This document shows positions 21,599 to 27,822 of a stretch of 33,747 nucleotides of DNA, one piece after another. Position 1 is the first letter of the stretch. Every line of letters begins with the position of its first letter. Below the pieces are notes generated by a model. It searched no databases. It saw only the letters and a list, made by a program, of their open reading frames with translations, and was not told where the DNA came from. Source of the DNA: Lachnospiraceae bacterium (GTDB lineage: Bacteria > Bacillota > Clostridia > Lachnospirales > Lachnospiraceae); contig SVFG01000022.1 of NCBI GenBank assembly GCA_015056975.1, forward strand, positions 1-33,747, read 5' to 3'. Position numbers and translations under genes: made by a program.

Positions 21599-21639
21599 TA
21601 ATTGTTTGAAAAATTCCAACAAATTTTTATAAAAAGCGA

Positions 21640-21668
21640 TTGACATTTTGAAAGGAAAGTGCTATTAT
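21640..21668 (+). promoter_or_regulatory. Strong promoter for tRNA-Leu
   Basis: A perfect TTGACA (21640-21645), a 17-bp spacer and TATTAT (21663-21668) preceded by TGC form a near-consensus stable-RNA promoter. Between it and the tRNA is a perfect palindrome, CTTGCGC-AGT-GCGCAAG (21673-21689), likely a 5' leader hairpin. Confidence 0.85.
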
Positions 21669-21696
21669 CATACTTGCGCAGTGCGCAAGCAGTGAT

Positions 21697-21780
21697 GCGG
21701 AAGTGTCGGAACTGGCAGACGAGCAAGACTAAGGATCTTGTGGTGGTTACACCGTGTGGGTTCAAGTCCCATCTTCCGCA
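21697..21780 (+). tRNA. tRNA-Leu (anticodon AAG)
   Basis: An 84-nt class II tRNA. The acceptor stem is GCGGAAG/CTTCCGC with discriminator A. The anticodon stem CAAGA/TCTTG encloses CTAAGGA, giving anticodon AAG. The long variable arm GGTG-GTTA-CACC is diagnostic of Leu/Ser/Tyr types. The T-loop is TTCAAGT. CCA is not encoded. A34 would be expected to be modified to inosine to read CUN codons. The 3' end serves as the attachment site for the elements downstream. Confidence 0.95.
21761..21780 (+). repeat. att core in the tRNA 3' end
   Basis: TTCAAGTCCCATCTTCCGCA covers the T-loop, the 3' T-stem strand and the 3' acceptor strand. It is repeated exactly at 23328-23347 and 24607-24626. Integrase-mediated insertion at such a site restores the tRNA, which explains the intact gene. 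Confidence 0.85.
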
Positions 21781-21825
21781 CGAAAAGGAAATAAGCAGGT
21801 CGATGACCTGCTTATTTCTTTTTCG
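21781..21825. terminator. tRNA-Leu terminator (long perfect palindrome)
   Basis: GAAATAAGCAGGTC (21788-21801) and GACCTGCTTATTTC (21805-21818) flank GAT. Pairing continues outward to 21781 and 21825 with one G-T, giving 21-bp arms ending in TTTTT. A close copy follows the att site at 24626. Confidence 0.85.
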
Positions 21826-21834
21826 TGCGGAAAA

Positions 21835-21905
21835 GACCTTGAGCCCAGGGCTCAAGGTCTCCGCTTCGCTCCGGTCGGCGCAGAGCCGAGGTCCCCCGGA
21901 CCTCG
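21835..21905. repeat. GC-rich palindromes between the tRNA and the first module
   Basis: GACCTTGAGCCC (21835-21846) and GGGCTCAAGGTC (21848-21859) form a perfect 12-bp inverted repeat around a single A. CGAGGTCC-CCC-GGACCTCG (21887-21905) is a second hairpin. The GC content contrasts sharply with the AT-rich module that follows. The 386-bp stretch 21599-21984 holds only these, the tRNA, its promoter and terminator, and two att-like 12-mers; I see no gene in it. Confidence 0.7.
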
Positions 21906-21910
21906 TGCGC

Positions 21911-21972
21911 CCCATCTTCCGCGCATATGCCGCGTCGGTCGGTTCGATTTTCTGTCTCATCCCATCTTCCGC
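21911..21972 (+). repeat. Two partial att copies 50 bp apart
   Basis: CCCATCTTCCGC, the last 12 paired bases of the tRNA 3' end, occurs at 21911-21922 and again at 21961-21972. The second copy is followed at once by the truncated Rep gene. They look like scars of earlier insertions or deletions at the attachment site. Confidence 0.6.
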
Positions 21973-21975
21973 TGA

Positions 21976-22566
21976 AAAAGAATAGTCTATGAATATGCGT
22001 TCGCAAATGATTGGAGTGGTGGTTGGTTCTTCACTATCACTTTTGACCCTGAACAAGTAGATAGTTTTAACTATGAAGAATGTTATAATCGTGTTTATCA
22101 GTTCTTAAAGAATGTGAAAAACCAAAACCCAGACTTTAAATATTTATTTGTTCCAGAATTGCACAAAAGCAAACGCTGGCATTTTCATGGTATCGGTGTA
22201 AATTGCGATAAGTTGAAATTTGAAAATAGTGGCATTGTCAAAAATGGGAAAGAAATCTATAACATCAATAAGCGTAGTTTCAAATATGGTTTCACTACTG
22301 CCACCAAAATAGAAAGCACCGAGAAAGTGAGCAACTACATCACAAAGTACATAACAAAAGAACTAATTACCATGTCAAAAGGACAGCACCGCTATTTATA
22401 CAGTAAGAACTTAGCCAAGCCACAAAGTGAAACGCTATTTGAAGAAGATTTGAAATTTATGGAGTTGCTTCTTACCAAGAATAAAAACTTTGTGAAGATT
22501 AAAAAGGTGAAAGATGAAGAGTGTGGAATTGAAACGACATATATCACGATTAAAAAAACAGAATAA
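21976..22566 (+). pseudogene. 5'-truncated HUH rolling-circle replication protein (REP_ORF2/G2P-like)
   Basis: An open frame of 196 codons without a proper start. It reads WSGGWFFTITFDPE near the front, which is the first Rep motif. RWHFHGIG then supplies the metal-binding HUH (His codons at 22180 and 22186), and VSNYITKYITKEL matches the tail typical of phage and plasmid initiators of the G2P/ORF2 type. The extreme N terminus is missing: the frame begins 4 bases after the partial att copy at 21961-21972, so a deletion joined att to the middle of rep. ATG 22114 would omit the first motif. By family the intact protein nicks one strand to start rolling-circle replication. It is probably inactive, but its 3' end supplies the promoter for the passenger gene behind it. 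A relaxase-like role is a less likely alternative. Confidence 0.75.
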
Positions 22567-22573
22567 AATTTGA

Positions 22574-22601
22574 TTGCTCATGTTGGAAAGCGTGATATAA
22601 T
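22574..22601 (+). promoter_or_regulatory. Module promoter 1 (drives GNAT 1)
   Basis: TTGCTC (22574-22579), a 16-bp spacer with ATGTTGGAAA, then TGA-TATAAT (22596-22601). The same arrangement stands before the other two passengers at 23959 and 24795. It lies just after the rep stop codon. Confidence 0.8.
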
Positions 22602-22649
22602 GATAGATAAATTGAATTTATCTGTTTGAGATAAAAGGGAGATGACATT

Positions 22650-23207
22650 ATGAAACATTGTGGAACACAGAGATTAGAAACCGAAAGATTGATTTTAAGG
22701 AGATTTGTTAGCGAAGATGCAGATGCTATGTACAAAAATTGGGCATCAGATAGTGAAGTAACCAAATTTTTAACATGGCCTACACATTCAAGTGTTGATG
22801 TAAGTAAATATGTAACAGATGATTGGGTAAATTCTTATTCTAACGAGAAATATTATCAATGGGCTATTGTTTTAAAAGAAAATGGGGATGTGCCTATTGG
22901 TAGCATAAGTGCTGTTGATATGAAAGAAGACATTTCCATGGTTCAGATTGGATATTGCATAGGGCGTAATTGGTGGAATAAGGGAATTACTTCTGAAGCA
23001 ATGCAAGAAGTAATGAAGTTCTTTTTTGAAGAGATTGGAGTTAATCGTGTTGAAGCTAGACATGACCCTAAAAATCCTAATTCTGGTAAGGTAATGGAGA
23101 AGTGTGGAATGAAATATGAGGGAACTATGCGAAGCGCAGACAAAAACAATCAAGGAATTTGTGATGCAGTTTATTATGCATTGTTAAAATCAGAATGGGA
23201 AAAGTAA
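22650..23207 (+). CDS. GNAT N-acetyltransferase, RimJ/RimL type (passenger 1)
   Basis: This 185-residue protein has ETERLILRRFVSEDADAMYKNWASD at the N terminus, the RimJ/RimL-type opening (written here in full as one motif broken over residues 10-34). The acetyl-CoA-binding segment is IGYCIGRNWWNKGITSEAM, and NPNSGKVMEKCGMKYEG forms the C-terminal core. The fold is complete, so it may be active. Possible substrates include N-terminal amines of proteins or a small-molecule toxin or antibiotic; sequence alone does not decide. GGGAG precedes the ATG. It sits between the Rep 3' end with its module promoter and the first conserved att segment, exactly where the other modules carry unrelated genes. 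The AT-rich composition supports transfer. Confidence 0.85.
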   Translation: MKHCGTQRLETERLILRRFVSEDADAMYKNWASDSEVTKFLTWPTHSSVDVSKYVTDDWVNSYSNEKYYQWAIVLKENGDVPIGSISAVDMKEDISMVQIGYCIGRNWWNKGITSEAMQEVMKFFFEEIGVNRVEARHDPKNPNSGKVMEKCGMKYEGTMRSADKNNQGICDAVYYALLKSEWEK

Positions 23208-23235
23208 TAGGATATTCTACAAAATTTCATTTGTA

Positions 23236-23347
23236 AAGGTCATGCGGAAGTTTGTTACACTTTTGTTACACTTGAAGATGATGTGCTGAAAAGCCCTTTC
23301 TATCGTGTTTTTTTAGGTACAAATTCATTCAAGTCCCATCTTCCGCA
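23236..23347 (+). repeat. Conserved att segment, copy 1
   Basis: About 112 bp, matching 24513-24626 with roughly four differences by eye. It starts AAGGTCATGCGGAAG and carries two TTGTTACAC repeats 11 bp apart (23252, 23263), the pattern of integrase arm sites. It ends in the exact 20-bp tRNA 3' sequence (23328-23347). It follows passenger 1 by 28 bp. I see no gene in 23208-23424. Confidence 0.8.
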
Positions 23348-23357
23348 TTAACCTTTT

Positions 23358-23394
23358 AAGAAAAAGCCTTGAAAATTCAAGGCTTTTTTCTTTT
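23358..23394. terminator. Bidirectional terminator between att copy 1 and the integrase remnant
   Basis: GCCTTGAA (23366-23373) and TTCAAGGC (23376-23383), extended by A/T runs on both sides, can stop transcripts from either strand. It closes the reverse-strand integrase and differs from the tRNA terminator, so it belongs to the element's left end. Confidence 0.8.
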
Positions 23395-23411
23395 GTCTGT
23401 ATGAAATTTTT

Positions 23412-23430
23412 TTGTTACACTTTGTTATAC
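23412..23430. repeat. Left-end arm-type repeats
   Basis: TTGTTACAC (23412-23420) and TTGTTATAC (23422-23430) are spaced 10 bp apart and overlap the integrase stop codon. They match the paired repeats in both right-end att segments, as expected for arm sites bound by the integrase N-terminal domain on both sides of attP. Confidence 0.6.
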
Positions 23431-23898
23431 CGCCTTTGGCTTGAAAACTTTGGCAAAAACATCTGCTTTATCCGTAAGTGGTGTAACAGAATGAATATAA
23501 TATTTCTGTGTTGTAGAAATATCTTTATGACCTGCAAAGTCAGAAATTATTCGGTCTGGTAAAAGTTGGCTGTCATGTAGTTCCGAAATGCAAGTTTTTC
23601 TAATTGCATGGTTTCCGCTAGGCTTACCAGAAATAATAAAGCGGTCTTTTTCATTTCTAACGCCGTTGCAACGACGAAGTACATTATTCACAACATATTC
23701 ATGCATTCTTTCGCCAGACTTACTAACAAAGATATAATCTTTATCGCTTCGCCCATTGGCTTTGTTTTCATCAAGTGCCATTTTAATATATTTTTTGGCA
23801 TCTGGTGTTAAAACCAAGGTTCTAATGCCTGCGTCTGTTTTTGGGTGTTGTGCAATTCTGTATCCGTCTGCGTGTATCTTACCATTTTCATCTTTGGT
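23425..23898 (-). pseudogene. int: Tyrosine integrase, C-terminal fragment
   Basis: About 157 codons of the catalytic domain survive: PKTDAGIRTLVL, the H-x-x-R box in GNHAIRKTCISELHD, and the terminal GHKDISTTQKYYIHSV with the Tyr nucleophile. The arm-binding domain, core-binding domain and first catalytic Arg are gone, so it cannot recombine. At 23898/23899 the frame runs into the reverse complement of a Rep gene tail, so the ATG at 23925 is chimeric. Its 3' end faces att copy 1, the usual int-next-to-att layout. By inference the full enzyme inserted these elements at tRNA-Leu. Confidence 0.85.
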
Positions 23899-23951
23899 AT
23901 GAAGAGTGTGGAATTGAAACAACATATATCACGATTAAGAAGAATAAGTAA
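23899..23951 (+). pseudogene. Rep 3'-end remnant, module 2
   Basis: The last 17 codons of the Rep gene, reading EECGIETTYITIKK then a stop, are nearly identical to the end of the frame at 21976-22566 (corresponding bases 22514-22566). It is joined head-on to the truncated integrase, marking a large deletion that removed most of int and rep. Confidence 0.8.
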
Positions 23952-23958
23952 AAAGTGT

Positions 23959-23986
23959 TTATACATGTTGGAAACAATGATATAAT
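23959..23986 (+). promoter_or_regulatory. Module promoter 2 (drives DHFR)
   Basis: TTATAC (23959-23964), a 16-bp spacer containing ATGTTGGAAA, then TGA-TATAAT (23981-23986). The spacer and -10 are nearly identical to module promoter 1; the -35 is weaker. Confidence 0.7.
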
Positions 23987-24029
23987 GATAGGTAGACAAC
24001 GATGAGTTTAGGTTTGTGGAGGATAAGGT

Positions 24030-24497
24030 ATGATTGCTCTAATCGTGGCTTTTGCCAAAAATCAAGTAATTGGCAATAATGGTTGCATTCCCTGGAAAAT
24101 AAAAGGAGAACAAAAACGGTTTAAGGAACTGACAACCGAAAATGTGGTTATTATGGGGAGACGTTCTTATGAAGAGATAGGAAAGCCATTACCAAATAGA
24201 ACAACAATTGTTATATCTAATACTAAAAATTTTAATGGAGAAAATTGTTTTACTGCAAAAACGTTAAAAGAAGCAATTGAATTAGCAGGAGATAAAGATA
24301 TATATATTTCAGGTGGTGCAAAGTTATATGAAGAAGCATTGCCACTAGTTGAAAAAATGTATATTACTGAAATTGACTGTGATATTAACGGAGATACATT
24401 TTTTCCGCCTTTTGATAAAGAGCAGTTCATAAAAGAAATTGATGAACGATATGAGGGTGAAATTCCTTACACCTATGTAACATACACAAGGAAGTAA
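24030..24497 (+). CDS. dfr: Dihydrofolate reductase, DfrF/DfrA-like (passenger 2)
   Basis: This complete 155-residue DHFR reduces dihydrofolate with NADPH. Visible landmarks are MIALIVAFAKNQVIGNNG, IPWKIKGEQKRFKELT, VVIMGRRSYEEIG, LPNRTTIVIS and the NADPH loop YISGGAKLYEEALP. The acidic active-site residue is E27 in a KGEQ context, where chromosomal enzymes usually have Asp. IPWxxKGEQ is shared, from memory, by acquired trimethoprim-resistance enzymes such as DfrA1 and DfrF, and the whole chain reads closest to DfrF. It may therefore confer trimethoprim resistance; this is inference. GGAGG precedes the ATG. It is an island passenger, not part of a folate operon: no thyA lies beside it. Confidence 0.88.
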   Translation: MIALIVAFAKNQVIGNNGCIPWKIKGEQKRFKELTTENVVIMGRRSYEEIGKPLPNRTTIVISNTKNFNGENCFTAKTLKEAIELAGDKDIYISGGAKLYEEALPLVEKMYITEIDCDINGDTFFPPFDKEQFIKEIDERYEGEIPYTYVTYTRK

Positions 24498-24512
24498 ATT
24501 CTATATTTTCTT

Positions 24513-24626
24513 AAGGTCATGCGGAAGTTTTGTTACACTTTTGTTACACTTGCAGATGATGTGCTGAAAAGCCCTTTCTATCGTAGTTTTTTGAGGTACA
24601 AATTCATTCAAGTCCCATCTTCCGCA
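24513..24626 (+). repeat. Conserved att segment, copy 2
   Basis: About 114 bp and near-identical to 23236-23347. It includes paired TTGTTACAC repeats 11 bp apart (24530, 24541) and the exact 20-bp tRNA end at 24607-24626. It follows the DHFR stop by 15 bp. The gene-free stretch 24498-24852 (355 bp) holds this segment, a terminator copy, a Rep remnant and a promoter. Confidence 0.85.
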
Positions 24627-24669
24627 CGAAAAAGGAAATAAGCAGGTCGATGACCTGCTTATTTCTTTT
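24627..24669. terminator. Second copy of the tRNA-Leu terminator
   Basis: GAAATAAGCAGGTC-GAT-GACCTGCTTATTTC followed by TTTT repeats the hairpin found right after the tRNA. Here it follows att copy 2, and may be the original chromosomal tRNA terminator displaced by insertions, or a copy carried by an element. Confidence 0.85.
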
Positions 24670-24704
24670 CCGCTGAAAAAATAATCTGTGATGAAAATAG
24701 CATT

Positions 24705-24794
24705 CTATTTGCATGGCAAGAACCTAGCCAAGAAACGCTGTTTGAAGAAGATTTGAAATTTATGGAGTTGCTTCTTACCGAGAATAAAATTTGA
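24705..24794 (+). pseudogene. Rep 3'-end remnant, module 3
   Basis: Matches bases from about 22392 onward of the module 1 Rep frame (…AAGAACCTAGCCAAG…GAAGAAGATTTGAAATTT…). A 10-bp deletion shifts the frame. A further ~82-bp deletion has collapsed between two AGAATAAAA repeats, so the frame ends just before the module promoter. Confidence 0.7.
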
Positions 24795-24822
24795 TTGCTC
24801 ATGTTGAAAAGAATGGTATAAT
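24795..24822 (+). promoter_or_regulatory. Module promoter 3 (drives GNAT 2)
   Basis: TTGCTC (24795-24800), a 16-bp spacer containing ATGTTGAAAA, then TGG-TATAAT (24817-24822). The -35 and spacing equal module promoter 1, although the Rep coding sequence before it is mostly lost. Confidence 0.8.
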
Positions 24823-24852
24823 AAAGACAAGTTTGATTTTACGGAGGTTGTG

Positions 24853-25281
24853 ATGGTAAGGATAGCGACTGTAGTTGACGCTGAACAATTAAGTGTTTTA
24901 AATGAAGAGTTTAACGGTGAAGGCGAAACAACCATTGAGAATATAAAAGATTCGCTTCAAGACAATAAACAGGAGGTTGTAATTGTAGATGAGGAAAGCG
25001 GAGTATTAACCGGTTTTGTTTGTGTCCAGTTAAAAAGATCCTTTTGTTATGATGATTATATGCCTGAAATTACGGAAGTATATGTTAATCCTAAATTCAG
25101 AAAAAAGGGAATTGCAAGCAAAATGATTGGTTTCGCAGAGGAGTATTGTGCAAAGAATTATCCTCTTCATAAATACGAACTTCTTACGGGAACTGAAAAC
25201 ACTGTTGCACAGTCTGTGTACAGTAAATTAGGATATACAGATGATAAAGAGCTTCATTTATCAAAGCGAATAAAGCGTTAG
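24853..25281 (+). CDS. GNAT N-acetyltransferase (passenger 3)
   Basis: This 142-residue single-domain GNAT reads MVRIATVVDAEQLSVLNEEF at the start. It has ITEVYVNPKFRKKGIASKMI (beta-4 and the acetyl-CoA loop R/QxxGxA) and NTVAQSVYSKLGY (C-terminal core). It is not closely similar to passenger 1, so the two were acquired separately. Its small size and ITEVYV core resemble small-molecule acetyltransferases, but no substrate can be named. ATG 24853 is 5 bp after ACGGAGG; a GTG one codon earlier is the alternative. The next gene starts 11 bp after the stop, so they may be co-transcribed. Confidence 0.82.
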   Translation: MVRIATVVDAEQLSVLNEEFNGEGETTIENIKDSLQDNKQEVVIVDEESGVLTGFVCVQLKRSFCYDDYMPEITEVYVNPKFRKKGIASKMIGFAEEYCAKNYPLHKYELLTGTENTVAQSVYSKLGYTDDKELHLSKRIKR

Positions 25282-25292
25282 GAGTCTGACTT

Positions 25293-26327
25293 ATGAGAAT
25301 TATTTTTGTACGCCACGGACACCCAAATTATGCTAAAGATTGTTTGGCGGAACTGGGACATAAGCATGCGGTTGCTGTTGCAGAGCGCCTTAAGGATGAA
25401 GGCATCGAGGAAATCTATTCTTCCACCTGCGGGCGCGCTTATGAAACAGCAGGCTATGTAGCAAAAGAATACAATCTTCCCATTATAAAATGCGAATTCA
25501 TGCGTGAGATTTCCTGGGGCTCCATAAATGGAGAGCCTTTATTTAACGATGGACACCCTTGGTCTACCGTAGACAATATGGTTGCAAACGGAGAAAATGT
25601 CTGGGATTATGATTGGGCTTCAAAGGCACCTTTCGCAAACAATAAAATGGTTGGTTGTGTGGAAAATATAGCAATCGCCTTAGATAAATGGTTAGAAACG
25701 CTGGGATACAAAAGAGAGGGGTTATATTATAGAGTAATGGAAGGGATTAATACTCAAAAGACCATTGCTGCTTTTGGGCATGGTGGAGCGGGCTCCGCAA
25801 TTTTATGTCACTTATTTAATCTTCCGTACCCTTTTGTATGTACTACCTTTGGTCAGGATTACACCGGTATTACCATTGTAACCCTATCTGATACACCCGG
25901 AGCACTTGTTAAACCGTCTATTGAAATAATGAACGACGCAAGACATATAAAAGATTTACAAATTGAGAATGTGTTTGGCAATTCAGAATGCTTAAATTGT
26001 AAAGAATTACAAAATGATATGTTAAACGCTGAAAAAGACCCTCATAGTATGTTAATTCCGACCTATGAGAAGCTAAAGCGCATGTATGAAAGCAATAAGC
26101 TTAAGCTGGTTATCTCGGATTGTTCTTTTGAGCATTTTATGCAGGAAGTGGCTGAAGAAAGGCATTATACCTATCAGGCATATCTTCAGTGTCCGGAATG
26201 TAAAGCGTTCTTTCATCTGGGAGTATGTGTGAGAGGAACTCCCATATATGAGGTGACAAATTGTCCTCCCGATATGGAGAAATTCATAGACATTGCTAAG
26301 CAGGATGGAAAGGTGATTTATCGGTGA
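25293..26327 (+). CDS. Histidine phosphatase-like protein with Cys-containing C-terminal extension
   Basis: This 344-residue protein has a histidine phosphatase domain at about 1-215. IIFVRHGHPNYA supplies the RHG with phospho-acceptor H8, IYSSTCGRAYETA carries the phosphate-binding Arg, FMREISWG the candidate acid, and FGHGGAGSAI the second His. Residues about 250-344 form an added domain that I do not recognise. It contains LQCPECKAFFHLGVC, a possible metal-binding cluster. Typical single-domain members are near 200 residues. The gene lies 11 bp after passenger 3 and 34 bp before the zinc-ribbon gene. Composition is nearer the host than the modules before it. The substrate is unknown. Confidence 0.75.
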   Translation: MRIIFVRHGHPNYAKDCLAELGHKHAVAVAERLKDEGIEEIYSSTCGRAYETAGYVAKEYNLPIIKCEFMREISWGSINGEPLFNDGHPWSTVDNMVANGENVWDYDWASKAPFANNKMVGCVENIAIALDKWLETLGYKREGLYYRVMEGINTQKTIAAFGHGGAGSAILCHLFNLPYPFVCTTFGQDYTGITIVTLSDTPGALVKPSIEIMNDARHIKDLQIENVFGNSECLNCKELQNDMLNAEKDPHSMLIPTYEKLKRMYESNKLKLVISDCSFEHFMQEVAEERHYTYQAYLQCPECKAFFHLGVCVRGTPIYEVTNCPPDMEKFIDIAKQDGKVIYR

Positions 26328-27195: not shown

Positions 27196-27822
27196 GTGAA
27201 GTACAGCGAATTACCAAAACAGTGGAAAAGGATTTTTGATTTGGAATGGCAGTCGGTTTGTGAGGGAAGTAAGGCTATTGCTGCGGTGATTGTAGATGAA
27301 AACGGTGAGATTGTCTCGGAGGGCAGGAATCAGATTTCGGAGTGTACGGTTCCCAACCCTGCTACGGCACATGCGGAGACGGAGGCTATCAGAAATCTGG
27401 ATGTGAGCAAATACCCGAACCCGAAGGCCTATACGCTGTACGCGGGCTTAGAGCCGTGCATTATGTGCATGGGTACCTTGGTAATGGGGCATATCCGCAA
27501 GGTGGTTATTGCAGCAAGGGATGATTACGGCGGAGCCATGTACCTGATTGGGAAGAGTGCCTTTGCAAAGAGTAAAGGGATTGAAATCACGTGGCTGGAT
27601 AATGAATTAGGTGATATGCAGAGGGCTTTCCAGACAATACGGGAACTGCTATATAATCATGATGAACACAGAAGAAAGCTGATGTTATTGGATTTCTCGG
27701 TCTACAATAAAAGAGGCGTGGAGGCAGCAGTGAAGCTTGTGGAAGAAGGCTTCTTTGAAAAGCGGAAACTTTTCGATATCACTGCGCAGGAAGTGTTTGA
27801 TGCGCTATTTGAAAGGATGTAA
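27196..27822 (+). CDS. CMP/dCMP-type zinc deaminase
   Basis: This 208-residue protein carries the deaminase zinc site: H59 and E61 in TAHAETEAI, and C88 and C91 in LEPCIMCMG. It hydrolytically deaminates a nucleoside, base or related amine; the layout resembles guanine and tRNA-adenosine deaminases (TadA/GuaD). The usual domain is about 150 residues. A C-terminal extension of about 55 residues (LDFSVYNKRGVEAAVKL… to the end) is extra. The start is GTG at 27196 after AGGAGGGG. It precedes the YdcF-like gene by 12 bp. This is unlikely to be the housekeeping TadA given the extension, but that is not proven. Confidence 0.8.
   Translation: MKYSELPKQWKRIFDLEWQSVCEGSKAIAAVIVDENGEIVSEGRNQISECTVPNPATAHAETEAIRNLDVSKYPNPKAYTLYAGLEPCIMCMGTLVMGHIRKVVIAARDDYGGAMYLIGKSAFAKSKGIEITWLDNELGDMQRAFQTIRELLYNHDEHRRKLMLLDFSVYNKRGVEAAVKLVEEGFFEKRKLFDITAQEVFDALFERM

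Follow-up and report, generated by a model that had tools for sequence, protein, structure and literature searches.

What has placed three unrelated genes in a row behind a single tRNA-Leu(AAG) gene, each of them preceded by the remnant of a replication protein? The arrangement spans positions 21697 to 25281 of a 33,747-nt contig from a Lachnospiraceae bacterium; this whole stretch is referred to below as the window. Very probably, three decayed integrative and mobilizable elements (IMEs) of one family stand here in tandem, as units that resemble cis-mobilizable elements (CIMEs). This is supported directly by the architecture, by a backbone that is shared while the passenger genes are unrelated, by att repeats, by deletions that differ between copies and by purifying selection on the third passenger.

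Three modules behind one tRNA-Leu gene

The tRNA-Leu(AAG) gene, predicted with ARAGORN at 21697-21781 (+), is the integration target, and its 3′ end is the att core. The terminal 20-mer of the tRNA, TTCAAGTCCCATCTTCCGCA, has exact copies only at 21761, 23328 and 24607 when both strands of the window are searched. A sequence-only reading of the window had described three modules of the same order behind this tRNA. This order was confirmed in all three: a remnant of the 3′ end of the replication gene (rep), a promoter-like box and one open gene. Module 1 starts with a truncated HUH-type Rep (21976-22566, +; PF23343), which aligns by tblastn to residues 103-300 of a 300-aa Rep at 93% identity. 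It is followed by a promoter-like segment (22567-22649, +) with the extended -10 element TGATATAAT, which is conserved across the modules and was missed by the consensus scan. The passenger of module 1 is a GNAT acetyltransferase of 185 aa, GNAT1 (22650-23207, +; PF13302, E 9.4e-38, model positions 1-138 of 138). Module 1 closes with a right attachment segment, attR (23230-23347, +), which contains a GCGGAAG border, TTGTTACAC repeats and a copy of the tRNA 3′ end.

Module 2 begins with a left attachment segment, attL (23335-23425, +), consisting of the core, a terminator hairpin and an arm-type repeat; it is 97-98% identical to attL of the relatives L065 and L041 described below. On the minus strand follows a C-terminal integrase fragment (23428-23925; PF00589, E 3.1e-12), in which residues 283-440 of 440 align at 97% identity. 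The last Rep codons (approximately 23899-23957) are fused to this fragment and lead into the promoter-like segment, the whole occupying 23899-23994 (+). The second passenger gene encodes a dihydrofolate reductase (DHFR) of 155 aa (24030-24497, +; PF00186, E 8.8e-48, model positions 1-159 of 159). The attR of module 2 (24507-24626, +) is 95% identical to that of module 1. Module 3 contains Rep scraps with an internal deletion (24717-24797, +), a promoter-like segment (24781-24839, +; 83% identical to the module 1 promoter) and the gene of a second GNAT acetyltransferase, GNAT2 (24850-25281, +; PF00583, E 6.3e-14), with possible starts GTG at 24850 and ATG at 24853.

The claim that one att segment with an exact copy of the tRNA 3′ end closes the first two modules was borne out: an attR of approximately 118 bp, with the 20-nt copy, ends both of them, and no attR lies behind module 3. 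It also holds that the mobility genes are broken and all three passenger frames are open. The promoters had been called near-identical. They are only related, since those of the other two modules show 79% and 66% identity to module 1 over 61 nt. A generic sigma-70 scan of the region performed no better than shuffled sequences (14 hits against a mean of 12.6 expected), and the promoter call is therefore based on conservation across the modules. Four features had been overlooked or put differently: the minus-strand integrase fragment of module 2, two 12-nt core copies, a duplicated terminator and the missing attR of module 3.

A CIME descends from an IME that has lost integrase and relaxase, and is bounded by both att sites. 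The mobility remnants of the window comprise integrase residues 283-440 and no relaxase, and modules 1 and 2 are each flanked by a core (left) and attR (right). Queries with the Rep, integrase and relaxase found nothing further in the host genome, an assembly of 2.7 Mb in 164 contigs that is 85.6% complete with 4.5% contamination, so that a further copy may lie in the missing part.

The intact element and its single-gene slot

Source elements were sought by a DNA search of 61 genomes of the genus and by a Rep search of named genome contigs. The latter gave 31 loci, 14 of them with at least 89% identity. The fuller relative for which the sequence-only reading had proposed a search was found with the order att-Int-Mob-Rep-passenger-att in L065, a locus of a goat-colon Lachnospiraceae metagenome-assembled genome (MAG). 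Here the element is complete at tRNA-Leu(AAG) and measures 4,902 bp from core to core. It consists of the core, the tyrosine integrase (Int), a MobV-type relaxase (Mob), the HUH Rep, the promoter box, one gene, attR and the second core. The gene in the slot is shikimate-dehydrogenase-like, and a decayed module with GNAT1 (99% identity) stands directly behind the element. At L041/L064 the order is tRNA-Leu(CAG), core, attL, Int (440 aa, -), Mob (244 aa, -), Rep (300 aa, +) and promoter box, and the contig ends within the slot. A divergent version of 4,158 bp is present in Roseburia hominis An869 (L015/L072; Int 72%, Mob 60% and Rep 55-59% identity), where the slot holds a 26-aa frame only.

The sequence features that define an IME are present in these relatives. 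The backbone proteins of L041 and of the R. hominis element L015 match PF00589, PF01076 and PF23343. The integrase, a PF00589 protein of 436-441 aa, is open in L041, L065 and L015. The relaxases of L041 and L015 exceed the cut-off of PF01076 (Mob_Pre) and score 95.0 and 90.4 with the NCBIfam MobV model, just under its cut-off of 100. Boundaries at a specific target are given by cores at the tRNA-Leu 3′ end together with attR in L065 and L072. No further long frame lies between the cores, where short frames remain, including one of 57 aa between Mob and Rep; no profile search was aimed at conjugation pore genes. Residues R256, H380xxR383, H407 and Y416/417 are invariant among three aligned Ints, and HFHG and Y225xxxY229 among four aligned Reps; we take these to be the catalytic residues. 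A tRNA was called in 13 of 25 scanned loci and was always tRNA-Leu (AAG in 11, only CAG in two). Many of the other 12 loci lack a call because their contigs end there. Integrases with 36-65% identity to Int were also noted at five loci (L142-L146), four of which adjoin a tRNA-Leu gene (CAG or AAG) and one a tRNA-Ser(TGA) gene. The integrase family is thus wider than the element. In a further genus, a GNAT1 homologue (77% aa identity) lies close behind an attR-like segment (L115:191-1505), perhaps as a more distant branch of the element family.

The slot can be read in 20 modules, which carry 18 different first genes on one backbone according to a blastp comparison of the slot genes. Only GNAT1 and DHFR recur within this set. 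Eleven copies of the Rep 3′ segment share 91-95% identity. The catalogue of passengers that had been suggested thus shows unrelated genes in the same slot in other genomes. The count omits L040/L093 (module 3 of genome G303), L042 and L014 (second entries for L070 and L071), L046 (truncated slot gene), L041/L064 (slot cut by the contig edge), L083 and L090 (both at contig ends) and L115-L118 (matched by an attR-like segment alone). The 26-aa frame of L072 is outside the blastp set. L045 is included, with a box of only 76% and a gene that is not followed by attR, and is absent from the spacing measurement.

According to Pfam and NCBIfam, the slots hold five different GNATs, DHFR, an NAD epimerase, an S66 peptidase, a YcxB-like protein and an XRE protein. 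They further hold an AroE-like (shikimate-dehydrogenase-like) gene (165 bits, cut-off 200), PurN (177.8 bits, cut-off 150.1), a YeiH-like gene (136 bits, cut-off 233), an XRE protein with an FlhA-like part, a gene pair whose second frame is Barstar-like, a lipoprotein-like frame with no family above cut-off, a 148-aa frame without family and the 26-aa frame. The XRE-type DNA-binding domain joined to a stretch matching FlhA/FHIPEP was observed at L043:6764-7501 and L046:5401-5883. This passenger is 99% identical over 160 aa in the two genomes and truncated in the uncounted L046.

The slot is bounded by the -10 box and by GCGGAAG. On the left, similarity declines after the -10 box (17 modules). 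On the right, it starts at GCGGAAG (14 modules), the inverted copy of CTTCCGC in the core, and GCGGAAG is exact in 15 of 21 attR copies. The border profile was made without second copies of the same passenger and without divergent copies, with L071 lost on the right, and was anchored on TATAAT at the left, so that this box is fixed by construction. Of the 18 modules in which a box was found (19 were given), 16 have the passenger start at a distance of 30-62 nt behind it. Of the 17 modules in which a GCGGAAG border was found, 16 have the stop codon 4-51 nt ahead of that border. The distances for L075 and L072 are approximate, as their start or stop coordinates are a few bases off.

The passengers had been regarded as typical of resistance cassettes, and this part of the sequence-only reading is not supported. 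Slots elsewhere contain shikimate-dehydrogenase-like, PurN, epimerase, YeiH-like, S66 peptidase and XRE genes, and the window DHFR, although DfrF-like, reaches 195.6 bits on NCBIfam NF000333 against a cut-off of 320, below the threshold for DfrF. The resistance-cassette reading is weakened on both counts. Judged by family matches, most passengers are not resistance-like. The window DHFR is an extra copy, because the genome holds another DHFR at 36% identity. Relatives of GNAT2 with about 75% nucleotide identity occur on a Campylobacter jejuni plasmid, where aminoglycoside-resistance genes are close by, and on an Enterococcus faecalis plasmid, where apmA and a gene of the aminoglycoside phosphotransferase family are close by. 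Another on a Kurthia plasmid has no resistance neighbour listed. These plasmid contexts do not establish the substrate of GNAT2. With PADLOC, ten slot genes (three of the window, seven from elsewhere) gave only helix-turn-helix matches, to two XRE proteins.

We propose the following route to the array. Int would recombine a core equal to the tRNA-Leu 3′ end. The excised circle would be transferred by a helper conjugation system through the MobV-type relaxase, and the HUH Rep would replicate it by rolling circle. One passenger gene is carried in the slot between the putative promoter box behind rep and attR. After integration, deletions would remove int, mob and most of rep, while the promoter box, the passenger and usually attR stay. 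After each such event, a small unit with a single gene would persist behind the tRNA. The core that is left would permit another element to insert next to it. Exchange of the slot gene is judged likeliest to occur by recombination of rolling-circle single-stranded DNA, as in staphylococcal plasmids.

The element family may tentatively be seen as a single-gene shuttle, for which decayed tandem modules would serve as a passenger reservoir open to incoming intact elements; this extension we consider rather doubtful. Recombination would use repeated sequence at both sides of the slot, the Rep 3′ end with the promoter to the left of it and attR to the right. L065, with its intact element directly before a decayed GNAT1 module, would be the predicted substrate; no exchange event was observed. 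If true, single genes, including metabolic ones, would be stored and re-mobilised in an integron-like manner without integron machinery.

Decay, selection and competing explanations

The same passenger sits behind different deletions in different genomes. Before GNAT1, the window has a core copy joined to Rep at approximately residue 103, and L065 has attL and approximately 48 C-terminal Int residues, which lead straight into the promoter box; the two genes differ at 2 of 555 nt. In the window, DHFR is preceded by Int residues 283-440 fused to the final codons of Rep. In L070, approximately Int 417-440 meets Rep at about residue 110, the frame is broken near residue 131, and the genes show 3 differences in 465 nt (99% identity). 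Module 3 has the same decayed left side in G303, where GNAT2 is 97% identical at the nucleotide level and the flanks are syntenic (phosphatase 89%, deaminase 94% nucleotide identity). The GNAT2 genes of the window and G303 are separated by nine synonymous and three non-synonymous differences (omega 0.08, binomial P 7e-5 against a neutral split). This substitution pattern shows that GNAT2 has been under purifying selection after decay.

The terminator of the tRNA-Leu gene is present twice, at 21783-21825 and 24630-24672, with 98% identity, and the two copies flank modules 1 and 2. Copy A (21782-21832, +), an inverted repeat behind the tRNA, has a run of four A. Copy B (24627-24672, +), before module 3, has five A, as does the terminator in G303. 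Module 3 is probably the oldest unit because it is the most eroded, lacks attR and is common to G303. From the five-A/four-A pattern, modules 1 and 2 appear to be a composite with its own terminator that entered at the tRNA core before module 3. They probably arrived together from the tRNA-Leu locus of a related genome, as in the cis-mobilisation model, although this order of entry is based on one indel, which is thin support. The doubled terminator is in itself a possible scar of composite insertion. Of the repeated integration that had been claimed, site-specific integration at tRNA-Leu stands, and the number of events is less certain as modules 1 and 2 may represent a single arrival.

Several points weigh against the interpretation as three decayed IMEs. 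Module 3 is not a full CIME, since its attR is absent. In L114, 226 nt separate the slot gene from the attR that follows it, the box precedes the gene by more than 110 nt in L043 and L075, and no box was found in L113. The openness of the slot genes stems partly from their selection as long open frames, and strongly eroded modules are under-counted because loci were found through Rep, Int or attR. The relatives come mostly from MAG contigs, which frequently break off within the element; among close relatives, L065 alone is seen whole between its two cores. The G303 contig ends inside the core and gives no proof of a site without modules 1 and 2. Omega of the window Rep and Int remnants against intact copies is 0.03-0.08, and two comparisons of intact copies gave 0.04 and 0.11. 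The remnant values mostly reflect the time before decay, and the case for selection on a passenger is therefore made by the GNAT2 comparison only. Because remnant omega is also low, the decay of modules 1 and 2 is probably too recent for a contrast.

Among the alternatives, the one that survives best is that left-truncated modules (core, Rep scrap, promoter box, gene, attR) are non-autonomous cassettes moved in trans by an intact Int. Module 1 and L069, from an Agathobacter MAG, have nearly the same Rep start behind a core copy and different passengers, module 3 opens with a junction similar to both, and attR with its arm repeats is retained in many modules. We nevertheless regard such cassettes as unlikely. 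Module 2 of the window, the second module of L065, L070 and L075 keep attL or an Int stub with differing breakpoints, as expected of decay in place; L069 and module 3 lack attR, and no circle or insertion of a truncated unit was seen. The A-tracts at the shared breakpoint are a possible microhomology hot spot. They could have produced the junction twice, and the breakpoint was rejected as proof of a mobile truncated form.

Tandem duplication of one module with later replacement of the passengers would account for the backbone common to all three modules and the attR common to the first two. The deletions and remnants differ between the modules, however, the Int fragment being restricted to module 2, and two passengers occur with other deletions elsewhere; L065 and L070 make this explanation very unlikely. 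Collapsed or misjoined repeats in a MAG would be conceivable in view of the 164 contigs, the incompleteness and the contamination, and contigs of several relatives do end in repeats. A similar architecture in independent assemblies, including those titled as strains, Falcatimonas sp. MSJ-15 and Roseburia hominis An869, and the synteny of module 3 and its downstream genes in G303 make an artefact still less probable. An old vertically inherited block, to which module 3 with its 97% identical GNAT2 in G303 would conform, is the least credible explanation. It is contradicted for modules 1 and 2 by their att repeats and by passengers that are 99% identical to copies in other genomes at loci without shared synteny, and the flanking genes of the window were not found in L065.

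Relation to known systems and further observations

Integron cassette arrays, as commonly described, resemble the window in having single open frames beside recombination sites and an inverted-repeat border close behind the passenger. The window modules differ by a promoter-like box in each of them and by Rep and Int debris. Membership was rejected, as the three intact Ints score 26.6-34.4 bits against a cut-off of 220 for the XerA/integron-integrase model and 38-43 against 335 for XerC, and each module has its own promoter-like box; no IntI model was listed.

Integration, decay to CIMEs and accretion at the same site are described in a review of IMEs (PMC5704250), and a Streptococcus salivarius survey reports classical CIMEs together with gene-less microCIMEs of 130-220 bp (PMC7563491). 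The idea that decay leaves a tandem array corresponds to this published accretion model and is not a new principle. As in the CIMEs of these papers, integrase and relaxase are lost, att sites are kept in modules 1 and 2 and units stand in tandem at one target gene, with cargo kept in the classical forms. The microCIMEs resemble the window segment between the tRNA and module 1. The window units differ from the CIMEs described there in carrying about one gene with its own promoter-like box and in placing units of the same family side by side. According to the S. salivarius paper, two IMEs of one superfamily were never in tandem (PMC7563491). The intact and decayed pair of L065 does not strictly contradict this rule, which concerns undecayed IMEs.

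Class 10 of the streptococcal IMEs likewise combines a tyrosine integrase with a MobV relaxase and a rolling-circle-type initiator, without conjugation pore genes, and tandems with decayed elements are reported (PMC5357655). The present family is smaller (about 4.2-4.9 kb against 5-18 kb, with one of 53 kb), its Rep belongs to PF23343 and not PF02486, it has one-gene cargo in a fixed slot, and it targets tRNA-Leu (PMC5357655). Staphylococcal rolling-circle plasmids share a small backbone, an exchangeable gene and abrupt junctions, and their module exchange is attributed to rolling-circle single-stranded DNA; they are plasmids with mostly resistance genes, whereas the element sits at tRNA-Leu with mostly metabolic, regulatory or acetyltransferase passengers (PMC5703833). 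Tn5520, named the smallest mobilizable transposon, is similar with 4.7 kb, a single integrase and a mobilization gene, and differs in having no cargo and preferring AT-rich DNA, in contrast to one tRNA target and a cargo slot (PMC5704250).

The element family was not found described in the open-access literature, including the consulted portions of PMC5704250, PMC5357655, PMC7563491, PMC6907783 and PMC5703833, which is weak evidence of absence. Each principle is known. What did not appear in this literature is the combination of a small tRNA-Leu IME, a one-gene slot and mostly non-resistance-like genes. It provides a natural example of a minimal mobile element that would deliver one gene to a fixed chromosomal site and then decay, the gene remaining, and its slot holds ordinary metabolic genes beyond resistance-like ones. 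Because the backbone is 91-95% identical over the part compared while the passenger changes, it can be tested how tightly trimmed single genes are acquired and how often they are kept under selection once the carrier has decayed.

Rep matches occur in 4 of 138 genomes of the genus; with a looser cut-off, which also admits distant Reps, the figure for genomes of the taxonomic family is 11 of 250. Matches to attR were obtained in 11 of 138 genomes of the genus, three of them (G251, G258 and G328) at the core/attL end of the query only, and in 6 of 397 of the family. Strong matches to the R. hominis Int occur in 7 of 397. The genome of the window is counted in each figure. A scan of IMG/VR with Rep gave two distant loci, and plasmid and phage searches gave matches to passengers or the tRNA region, with Rep and Int matches that were distant only. 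Distant Reps in L006 and L008, from other Lachnospiraceae genera, adjoin a Zot-family protein (PF05707), which suggests filamentous-phage-like elements, and the Rep family is accordingly shared with such loci. An inovirus prophage, with Zot-family and coat genes beside a G2P-type Rep, was rejected as an identity, as the element has no further long frames.

Between the terminator and module 1 lie GC-rich structured repeats in which no gene was recognised (21833-21972, +), with 12-nt att-core copies at 21911-21922 and 21961-21972. The fold z-score is -5.85 for 21833-21922 alone and -10.4 with the terminator included. The attR segments, considered as possible counterparts of attC sites, which recombine as folded single strands, have inverted termini (GCGGAAG/CTTCCGC) but reach only -2.3 and -1.6. 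In an Rfam scan of 21600-25400, only the tRNA exceeds its gathering score. A similar repeat is found 3′ of other tRNAs. It follows the terminator, and its last 12-13 nt exactly repeat the 3′ end of the upstream tRNA. All six tRNA-Gly(GCC) loci examined, which were chosen for matching the repeat in the genus DNA search, have such a copy 123-130 nt downstream, and in L122 as many as three hairpin copies stand in tandem. Of the further loci in the set at other tRNAs of the genus (L122-L129), one at tRNA-Met has a 3′-end copy of 17 nt and one at tRNA-Pro none. The 12-13-nt copy is present at four of six tRNA-Leu(AAG) loci and missing at two, and the tRNA-Leu versions of the repeat would give the mobile element additional core sites. 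Finally, a zinc-dependent deaminase of the cytidine/dCMP type (PF00383) is encoded at 27196-27822 of the window, and a tRNA-Leu whose anticodon carries A at position 34 lies 5.4 kb away, perhaps by coincidence.

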